Positions 18,105 through 21,062 of a stretch of 61,736 nucleotides of DNA are shown here, piece by piece; positions within the stretch are counted from its first letter, which is position 1, and the number at the start of each line of letters is the position of its first letter. The DNA comes from Deltaproteobacteria bacterium. GTDB lineage: Bacteria; Desulfobacterota; Desulfobaccia; Desulfobaccales; 0-14-0-80-60-11. A model generated the notes under the pieces. That model was not told the origin of the DNA. It did no database searches and saw only the letters and a program-made list of their open reading frames with translations. The position numbers and the translations under genes were made by a program. The stretch spans positions 1 through 61,736 of the forward strand of contig JAKAKP010000079.1 in the NCBI GenBank assembly GCA_021813445.1, read 5' to 3'.

Positions 18105-18452
18105 GGTTTTTCTCCAGGTCGTATTCGATTACTGCACATGAAGCCCTTTCAGCAAAAAATAAGTAATTTTTCATGCTGTGCAAGAGGCGTTGCCTGTTAC
18201 TGGAGATTTGCCCCACCGATCATTCGGGGCAAACGTGATATCGATAATGTTAATATATACAAATAACCTTTAAAGATTTGGTTTAAGGGAATATAGAGCA
18301 GTTAGTCGCTTTTTGATTTTTATTTCATTCCAGGATGAGTTTGAGAACGGGTTGAAAACTGTTCAGGAGTTAGAGATAGGATAATGCCAAAGGCGGATTT
18401 TGCTGCTAATTCCGGCCTAATGGGCTCTATTTTATATCTAATCAAACAAGCA
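18105..18452. other. AT-rich intergenic region
   Basis: No gene is seen. An 8-bp inverted repeat TTTGCCCC/GGGGCAAA (18207-18233) without a T tract could be an operator for the YHS gene. Base composition becomes AT-rich toward the following acquired gene. Confidence 0.4.
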
Positions 18453-20840
18453 TCAAATTTTGATTTCTAGGCCTTTCCAAAAGGCAGGATTCACAATATA
18501 AATTACTTCATCGGCTGGTCTCCTTTTGAGTAGCGTCTTTAGGCGCTTCATATCGTAGCGAACTGAATATATAAATGACAAGTCACCGCTCTCACGACGG
18601 TATCCAATTATCCCATGCCAAAGCAAAAGGTATAAAATTTTATTCTGGATATCAGGGTCTGGAGTCACTTTGCCAAGTATTGAACGAAGTGTTGAATTAT
18701 CCAATTCAGGAGGACATTCTATAAATTCATAAAGTATATCATTAGCGGCTGGAAGTACATCTTTTATTTCGTAACTTAGATCATTTACAAGTTGGGTTGA
18801 GTATTGTTCCTCACCTTGTTCAATATCTTCAAGTTCGATTTTAGTGTGTCCCATATTTACAGCATGACTTCGACAGAACCTCAGGAATTCAATTAGCGAC
18901 CTTGGCCTCATAAGGCAGCGATCAACCATATAATGTGCGGTTTCCTCCCCTCTAATATGGCTAACGCATATGGTCCGCCAAATACTATCAAACGGGGTGT
19001 CTGCCGGGATTCCAGAAGATAAGAATCTACGGCGGAGAAGTTCTAATAATAATTCTGGATCTGACCAGTCAACGAGTGCGCTGGATATCTTTCCTCTATC
19101 AGGTGTAATTTCGATAAGATTTTCAAAAACATCATTTCTTACAAAAACGATGCAGTTTGTGGGGATGCCTTGACGCCGGAGGGCACGTAGCAATTTAACC
19201 ATTGCATCGATCAGGCATCTTAACGTTAAAACATCATTAGGACTAACACCCTGAGGAGGCCAACCTTTATCCAGATTATCAAATAATATCCAGAGAGCTT
19301 TTTTATATTTTAAATAATTTGACATCTGTGTCCGAAGAGCATTTATATCGTGTTTGTATATAAGTTCGGTCACTTCCTCGTTATTCATTCGATGGAGACG
19401 CTCTTGCAAATTTCCTTTGTCCGCTTTGAAATCGTCTGATATTCGCTGAATTAACTTCAACATTCTTTCAGCAAAGTCACCCTCAGAAATATATTCATCA
19501 GTATCATAAGTTGCAGAAAGATCAATATATTGAGAATAAATCCGATGGTCACGAAGGTGGACGATCTTATCCTTTTGAAGTAATTTATGGCATATTTCAA
19601 GAAGAAGCAAATATTCCCAGAATGCTGTTATTGTATGTTCTTTAGTACCCTCCGAAAGATAATCTAGAACTAATTCTTTGAACTTTATAAGCTGAAATCC
19701 CTCAGGTTTTAAATCTAAAACAACATTTTCTTTATCTTCCCGCAATCGATCCCGGAGTTGAAAAAATAGGGCTGTCTTCCCAGCCCCCTTGCGCCCTAAG
19801 ACGACTTGTACTTCACCCCTCAAGGCACGCTTAAATTCATCAGTTTCTAAATAATACTCGCCCAGTTTTTGGAATTCGTTTTCAGCGGAGGATGCACCAA
19901 GGGTAAGACGTGAAAGAAAGGTCCCAGGTGTTTTGACGATATCCGGTTGTAAGGATTGCAGACTTTCAAATACTTCCGCCGCAAACGCAGCAACATATTC
20001 ATCTATTTGAATTGGGTTTGCATATCTACTAACAATATCTCTATAATCCAATGGCACAGGGTCATCTTCAAATTGGAGCATAAGTAATAATCTACCCATA
20101 CCATGGGTTAAACCTGCAAGGAAAGCCCCACGCATGTTATGGATATCTGCATCAACGAAATATCTTGGCAATAAAGGTATTATCACGCCATAAGAACTTG
20201 CAACATTTTCTATAGCATCTACTGCTGATAGACGGCCATGCTCTTCAGGATCATAGGACCGAAAAAATAATCGTGCCTTTTTAACTCGGGAAACTAAATG
20301 GGTCTCTATATCGCCTTTCAGTTTAGGGAGTATAAGGTATACTGGCGTCCTATTATTTCTTGAATCTACATTAAATTGAAGAGGGGCGATATCTGTAATT
20401 TCCAATAATTTATCCTGAAAAGTAGTGCTATCTGTGTAAGTTGCATAGCCTAACGTATCGAAGATGCCAACGCGCAGGGTTAATTCTTCATCAGGTTTCA
20501 GCATTTCATTACGAAGGAGAATTGCTCGTTTTCTACAGCCTATTGCAAAGCCAATTTCATAGACAACATTGAAGTTTAATTTTGTTATATCTGCGACAAA
20601 TGAATTTCCTCTTTCAATAATCCTTAGTACTTCAGTTGCTATGAACCTTCCGGGGATATCATTTTCTTCCCAACTAATTAGCTCGGGGAGGCGGTGTTCA
20701 TGATGCAACTTTTCAAGCCCGCCGCGGATAGTCTGACCAATTTGCATGGGTGAAGATGGATAGGCTACCAATCCAGATAACAAGGAACACCTCCTTATCG
20801 AAAGATACGGTTTTTTGTCAATTTCAGATTCAATTGGCAA
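18453..20840 (-). CDS. TIR/deoxyribosyltransferase-like domain fused to Sll1717-type P-loop ATPase
   Basis: 795 residues. Residues 20-115 have the Rossmann-like pattern of nucleoside deoxyribosyltransferase/TIR-like domains: LVAYPSSP, then FVADITKLNFNVVYEIGFAI, with Glu 95 at the position of the catalytic Glu. Residues 165-300 look like a second, diverged alpha/beta domain. A P-loop ATPase follows: Walker A GRKGAGKT (349-356) and Walker B ALWILFDNLDKGW (about 515-527), as in the Sll1717-type family. No ATG is available near the start; TTG at 20840 is the first codon after an in-frame stop and lacks a clear SD. The gene is visibly richer in A/T than its neighbours and stands alone, which suggests transfer. 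A nucleotide-consuming, NTPase-gated defence function is inference. Confidence 0.75.
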   Translation of the reverse strand: MPIESEIDKKPYLSIRRCSLLSGLVAYPSSPMQIGQTIRGGLEKLHHEHRLPELISWEENDIPGRFIATEVLRIIERGNSFVADITKLNFNVVYEIGFAIGCRKRAILLRNEMLKPDEELTLRVGIFDTLGYATYTDSTTFQDKLLEITDIAPLQFNVDSRNNRTPVYLILPKLKGDIETHLVSRVKKARLFFRSYDPEEHGRLSAVDAIENVASSYGVIIPLLPRYFVDADIHNMRGAFLAGLTHGMGRLLLMLQFEDDPVPLDYRDIVSRYANPIQIDEYVAAFAAEVFESLQSLQPDIVKTPGTFLSRLTLGASSAENEFQKLGEYYLETDEFKRALRGEVQVVLGRKGAGKTALFFQLRDRLREDKENVVLDLKPEGFQLIKFKELVLDYLSEGTKEHTITAFWEYLLLLEICHKLLQKDKIVHLRDHRIYSQYIDLSATYDTDEYISEGDFAERMLKLIQRISDDFKADKGNLQERLHRMNNEEVTELIYKHDINALRTQMSNYLKYKKALWILFDNLDKGWPPQGVSPNDVLTLRCLIDAMVKLLRALRRQGIPTNCIVFVRNDVFENLIEITPDRGKISSALVDWSDPELLLELLRRRFLSSGIPADTPFDSIWRTICVSHIRGEETAHYMVDRCLMRPRSLIEFLRFCRSHAVNMGHTKIELEDIEQGEEQYSTQLVNDLSYEIKDVLPAANDILYEFIECPPELDNSTLRSILGKVTPDPDIQNKILYLLLWHGIIGYRRESGDLSFIYSVRYDMKRLKTLLKRRPADEVIYIVNPAFWKGLEIKI

Positions 20841-21062
20841 AAATTTTTAACAGCTTTCACTTAATCTCATATTGGCACAATATGACCTAAATTATCAAGA
20901 AAATGGAGAAATAATTGAAATCGCAGGGAAAGGATAATTAGCAAAATTTATGAATACTTGCCAGGATCGCTAATTATCGTTTGACCGGAAAAGATTTTAG
21001 AGATGACAACGATAGATGAAATTTCCCTGAATAATCAATTTTTAAAGAATTTAATGTTGTAA

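Follow-up and report, generated by a model that had tools for sequence, protein, structure and literature searches.

Avs and other bacterial STAND defence proteins combine an N-terminal effector with an NTPase switch. In the Swarozyc/DUF4062 family, TIR-like NADases related to NDTs possess a catalytic Glu, are patchily distributed and mobile, and in eukaryotic members are joined to a NACHT ATPase (PMC13174449). DS-41 (DefensePredictor) is an experimentally validated antiphage system with a wide distribution that includes Halobacteria (PMC13092281), and Retron-Eco1 is reported, by the title of a paper, to hydrolyse NAD+. The DNA analysed here, a stretch of 61,736 nucleotides referred to as the window, contains a gene whose predicted product carries two consecutive TIR/NDT folds, then an ORC-Cdc6/STAND-like ATPase of the Sll1717 family, and finally a winged-helix-like C-terminal part. 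An earlier note on this DNA had read the gene as an effector and an NTPase in one chain, the plan of several STAND-like proteins, and structural comparison finds that combination, a TIR/NDT domain with a STAND-type ATPase. We consider it probable (about 0.62) that the gene specifies a one-gene, horizontally moving abortive-infection protein in which trigger-induced oligomerisation of the ATPase activates cleavage of NAD+ (or a nucleotide).

The gene occupies an uninterrupted ORF of 795 codons on the reverse strand (18453-20840), the extent given in the earlier note. The ORF is intact, but that start probably lies 19 codons upstream of the true one. The TTG at 20783 is favoured as the true start because it is preceded, 6 nt upstream, by a perfect Shine-Dalgarno sequence, coincides with the N-termini of relatives, and leaves out residues 1-18 of the 795-aa ORF, which AlphaFold2 models with very low confidence (pLDDT <50). 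Residue numbers nevertheless follow the 795-aa ORF unless stated; from the corrected start, Glu95 becomes Glu76 and Lys355 becomes Lys336. All the motifs listed previously are present in the intact ORF (Table), although the domain 1 motif, recorded as ADIT-x5-N-V-x-Y-E-I-G, reads ADIT-x4-NVVYEIG (A83...G97), with a spacing of x4.

Table. Features of the locus, in window coordinates; residues are numbered on the 795-aa ORF.
Feature	Position	Strand	Basis and remarks
Inserted DNA relative to congeners, approximate extent	18302..20955		Homology to G001 stops at 18301; homology to G006 starts at 20956
Gene with corrected start	18453..20783	(-)	TTG 20783, 776 aa; AAGGAGG at 20790-20796; N-termini of relatives; original ORF extends to 20840
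Domain 1, TIR/NDT fold with catalytic-type Glu	20391..20783	(-)	Residues 20-150; AlphaFold2 model, DNPH1 structural and profile matches
Glu95 codon (Glu76 from TTG)	20556..20558	(-)	Aligned with the catalytic Glu of DNPH1; Glu in 22/22
Domain 2, second TIR/NDT fold; Ala/Met/Leu/Ser at Glu position	19941..20354	(-)	Residues 163-300; DNPH1 and RUN1 structural matches
Sll1717-family P-loop ATPase, ORC-Cdc6/STAND-like core and lid	18771..19916	(-)	Residues 309-690; NF047389, ORC2 1w5t, 2fna, 2qen
Walker A, GRKGAGKT	19773..19796	(-)	Residues 349-356; Lys355 invariant in 22 sequences
Walker B, LWILFDNLDKGW	19260..19295	(-)	Residues 516-527; Asp521 invariant in 22 sequences
C-terminal winged-helix-like part, candidate sensing surface	18456..18770	(-)	Residues 691-795; secondary structure of model; ORC2, 2fna and 2qen alignments reach 792-793

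The gene had also been described as AT-rich and alone, and both descriptions hold. Its GC content is 0.39 against 0.58 for the remainder of the window, and its GC3 is 0.31 against 0.69-0.86 in the neighbours tested. It is present as a single copy in the source genome, and the neighbours tested encode a metal P-type ATPase, a radical SAM protein, a metallophosphatase and a DUF3466 protein, with no defence gene among them. Promoter and terminator scans gave signals at shuffle level. A two-gene system or a toxin-antitoxin pair with a flanking small ORF was rejected because the inserted DNA beyond the 3' end of the gene holds no ORF longer than 41 aa, the longer ORFs belonging to or extending from the conserved flank. 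A retron or other RNA-linked system was likewise rejected, as an Rfam search around the gene returned no match.

AlphaFold2 was run with an input alignment of the window protein and ten relatives, and gave a whole-chain model with pLDDT 82 and pTM 0.79; residues 20-305 modelled alone reached pLDDT 88 and pTM 0.89. Structural comparison of domain 1 gave DNPH1 (Z 9.2, rmsd 2.9, 126 aligned; positions 1-132 in the domain construct) and MilB, a CMP hydrolase (Z 8.9). For domain 2 the matches include DNPH1 (Z 11.1, rmsd 2.7, 118 aligned) and, among plant TIRs, RUN1 (Z 10.5). When a profile built from the two domains was searched against the PDB, it matched DNPH1 at E 7e-6, with YEIG aligned to the catalytic YELG, and the top Foldseek match of the full model in the PDB was the plant TIR-NLR RPP1 (E 4e-5). 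The order of secondary structure elements agrees between the two domains (strand-helix repeats followed by one more strand and a closing helix), and in the model domain 2 is a second copy of the domain 1 fold. Sequence comparison by itself supports the duplication weakly (hhalign P 0.009; controls 0.24 and 0.51), and it is the structure that establishes it. A SLOG reading of domain 2 was rejected on the structural matches listed, among which are DNPH1 and plant and animal TIRs but no SLOG protein. Structure prediction of residues 1-300, proposed earlier as a check, thus agrees with the N-terminal TIR/deoxyribosyltransferase-like domain that had been suggested, and identifies what had been called a second alpha/beta domain as another TIR/NDT fold from which the Glu is absent.

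Residue conservation was counted in the window protein and its relatives, 22 sequences in all that are full-length or nearly so (pairwise identity ~20-76% in a 19-sequence subset). Domain 1 has the flavodoxin-like fold and the catalytic Glu in an NxxxE helix that characterise the TIR/NDT superfamily. Its Glu95 is invariant, and domain 2 has Ala, Met, Leu or Ser at the matching position and never Glu. In sequence and range alignments the strand-1 Tyr of NDT/DNPH1 is replaced by Phe or Leu in the relatives, and the DNPH1 Asp (Asp69 of rat DNPH1) by Val, Ile or Leu, so the canonical NDT/DNPH1 signature is absent from domain 1. NADase TIRs usually have Phe or Ala where NDT/DNPH1 have Tyr, according to a structural paper on Thoeris (PMC11204291), and because the replacements are in line with this, domain 1 looks, from its aligned residues, like a TIR-type NADase on an NDT-like scaffold. 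Domain 1 of several relatives also matches, weakly, the PADLOC model for a CBASS TIR effector.

The best-surviving alternative, though an unlikely one, keeps the same defence logic and takes domain 1 as a DNPH1/NDT-like hydrolase whose target, in place of NAD+, would be DNA bases or the pool of (d)NMPs or nucleosides, which it would deplete. DNPH1 is the top sequence-profile match, retron operons use NDT-like domains, and two relatives reach or pass the gathering cut-off (28.8) of Pfam PF05014 Nuc_deoxyrib_tr (L048, 29.7 bits; L008, 28.8 bits), a family to which the window protein itself has no match. The loss of the active-site Tyr and Asp speaks against such a hydrolase, as does Retron-Eco1, a system with an NDT-like effector to which a paper title attributes NAD+ hydrolysis. 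Cleavage of NAD+ by domain 1 is the reading we prefer. Domain 2 looks like a pseudo-enzyme with a conserved BB-loop-like segment (residues 197-205; Glu200 in 18 of 19 sequences), and may complete or gate the active site.

The ATPase half had been assigned to the Sll1717 type, and the assignment stands. NCBIfam model NF047389 (Sll1717 ATPase) matches residues 314-791 with 321 bits against a cut-off of 75 and over its full length (model positions 1-454). Residues 308-793 structurally match ORC2, Cdc6, archaeal STAND-type ATPases, CED-4 and NRC4 (Z 11.8-14.3); the best match is ORC2 1w5t (Z 14.3, 333 aligned, rmsd 5.0), followed by the archaeal ATPases 2fna and 2qen (Z 13.9 each), with CED-4 at Z 11.8, and the region also resembles TnsC. 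The P-loop core, Walker A and B motifs, helical lid and winged helix are all arranged as in solved STAND/ORC-Cdc6 members, with Lys355 and Asp521 conserved in 22/22. By regional identity, the most variable parts of this half are a helical insert (residues 426-512) and the C-terminal part (691-795), which we propose as candidate trigger-binding surfaces. No C-terminal repeat sensor follows the NTPase, the chain ending, in the model, inside the winged-helix-like part.

ATPase-only members of the Sll1717 family are present in the phylum of the window. A split effector encoded beside them was rejected, as none of ten such loci in the phylum had a neighbour resembling domain 1 or domain 2. Two enterobacterial plasmids encode Sll1717 ATPases (L038:3968-6064 and L040:4073-6115) with a C-terminal domain like the PADLOC candidate PDC-M36A (41 and 38 bits, respectively), which suggests effector exchange within the ATPase family.

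Relatives with the same domain order occur in at least five bacterial phyla, which argues against a chance arrangement. Many are plasmid-borne, with examples in Pseudomonadota, a spirochaete and a cyanobacterium, and others lie on nine prophage or viral contigs; a viral scan with the single window protein as query gave no match, and a scan of genome contigs with the single sequence gave one locus. Chromosomal copies are few (2/395 genomes in the phylum of the window), and in the Pseudomonadota sample, the phylum of Methylomicrobium, 4/398 genomes have a relative, the centre genome included. The relative on an actinobacterial plasmid (L007:8962-11355) is split into ORFs of 105 and 662 aa beside ThsB and DUF4062 genes, and is likely inactivated.

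The gene is absent from all six congeners compared, and the inserted DNA measures ~2.65 kb at 39% GC, with no convincing terminal repeats at its borders. Across the genus its site, between a YHS-like gene and the P-type ATPase gene (window 18105-21062; L041, L042, L043), varies in what is inserted there. In G004 just ~240 bp separate these two flanking genes, an empty site; G001 carries a different 1.7 kb piece (46.5% GC) with a 461-aa coiled-coil-like ORF, and G003 a ParE-like toxin gene with a small ORF. In a phylogenetic tree the window gene groups with Pseudomonadota plasmid and prophage copies, and the other copy from its own phylum falls in a distant clade. The empty site, the variable cargo of congeners, the plasmid and prophage copies and the discordant tree show that the gene was horizontally acquired and is mobile; recent transfer, suggested earlier from base composition and isolation, is supported by the empty site and the tree.

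Several homologues occur near defence genes, a point on which the earlier note had staked its reading, the neighbours including Thoeris, type III CBASS, DUF4062 and PADLOC-candidate genes. This association was observed among chosen neighbours of selected relatives. A ThsB gene adjoins two relatives (352 and 137 bits), the stronger match being that beside L007, which also adjoins a gene for a protein annotated DUF4062. The L026 relative adjoins genes for a TPR-S protein matching a CBASS TIR effector, a ThsB-type TIR protein and a SLATT protein. All three non-centre matches in the Pseudomonadota sample have such neighbours: L077 a complete type III CBASS set (cyclase, HORMA, TRIP13 and NucC), L075 a DUF4062 protein, and L076 the candidate defence protein PDC-S19 (PADLOC, 555 bits).

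Some of these regions have features of their own. At L077:2767-8306 the type III CBASS operon is followed by genes for a Tle1-like phospholipase and a non-specific endonuclease, adjoining the full-length relative. The L075:3580-6573 gene encodes a 997-aa protein with an unusual pairing of N-terminal DUF4062 and C-terminal biotinyl/lipoyl domains, and adjoins an unannotated 670-aa gene and the TIR-like/ATPase gene. The prophage region L026:10573-16438 holds, besides the TPR-S, ThsB-TIR and SLATT_3/SLATT_1 genes, a QueC gene, an Ogg-like gene and, on the other strand, a fusion of TIR and TGT-like domains, and looks like it contains two further nucleotide-linked defence modules.

A role outside defence, in plasmid or mobile-element maintenance, DNA handling or regulation by an ORC-Cdc6/TnsC-like ATPase whose N-terminal folds bind ligands, is improbable. 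The likeness of the ATPase to ORC/Cdc6 and TnsC, the plasmid location of many relatives, and the ATPase-only members in the phylum, which have no known role, would fit it, but only domain 1 keeps an invariant catalytic Glu, the copy in the window is, like some others, chromosomal and at a variable site, and several of the neighbours belong to defence systems and not to modules for replication or transposition. Least probable is a signalling enzyme whose ADP-ribose product, cyclic or linear, would serve as messenger to a distinct effector protein, like that of ThsB in Thoeris, since the TIR-like fold and the ThsB/TIR genes adjoining two relatives are offset by a solitary window copy and by the absence of a conserved partner gene from the neighbourhoods examined.

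The fold, the invariant Glu in domain 1, the Walker motifs, the mobility and the defence neighbours thus favour abortive infection. In an uninfected cell the ATPase would keep the chain at rest, probably bound to ADP. A trigger from the phage, for which the variable winged-helix part or the helical insert of the ATPase may be the sensor, would cause ATP-dependent oligomerisation, bringing the N-terminal domains together. Domain 1 would then become active, possibly with the BB-loop-like segment of a neighbouring domain 2, and would cleave NAD+ or, less likely, another nucleotide, whereupon growth and phage production would stop. More tentatively, the protein might represent a new TIR-NLR-like class with a tandem of active and inactive TIRs, in which the inactive one completes or gates the active site and the ATPase with its winged helix is the sensor. 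If the protein is defensive, it would extend the Sll1717 ATPase family by an effector that cleaves NAD or nucleotides, provide a compact comparator, free of a sensor domain, for TIR-NLR-type immunity of plants and animals, and offer a simple system in which to ask whether an inactive TIR partner helps to form a TIR active site.

The locus is of a known kind, an effector with a STAND-type NTPase, and its layout is unnamed in the libraries and literature searched. The earlier statement that no characterised system has exactly this domain order holds in these sources, where a search for Sll1717 found no paper and the only PADLOC match of the window protein was a weak one (25 bits) to the candidate family PDC-M28C. 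The ATPase of DS-41 is remotely related: NF053860 (DS41_1_antiphage) scores 34.8 bits over residues 317-690, far below its equivalog cut-off of 370, which places the window protein outside that family, and the 448-aa model has no match to the TIR/NDT domains. Retron-Eco1 is an antiphage system that also uses an NDT-like fold, whereas the window gene has its ATPase fused and lacks an Rfam match, and neither its chain nor the immediate neighbours tested include a reverse transcriptase. With Swarozyc/DUF4062 the protein has in common a TIR-like domain with a catalytic Glu, patchiness and mobility, but it gave no DUF4062 match in Pfam (E up to 10) and differs in its inactive second TIR-like copy and its Sll1717 ATPase; the DUF4062 protein near L075 is a neighbour, distinct from the TIR-like/ATPase protein. 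The effector and NTPase plan is that of Avs and other STAND proteins, without their C-terminal repeat sensor. By analogy, the overall plan resembles a bacterial counterpart of the plant TIR-NLRs (RPP1, RUN1), which also hold a TIR-like domain and a STAND-type ATPase in one chain, although the window protein has two TIR-like domains, a bacterial Sll1717 ATPase and no leucine-rich repeats or other C-terminal sensor.
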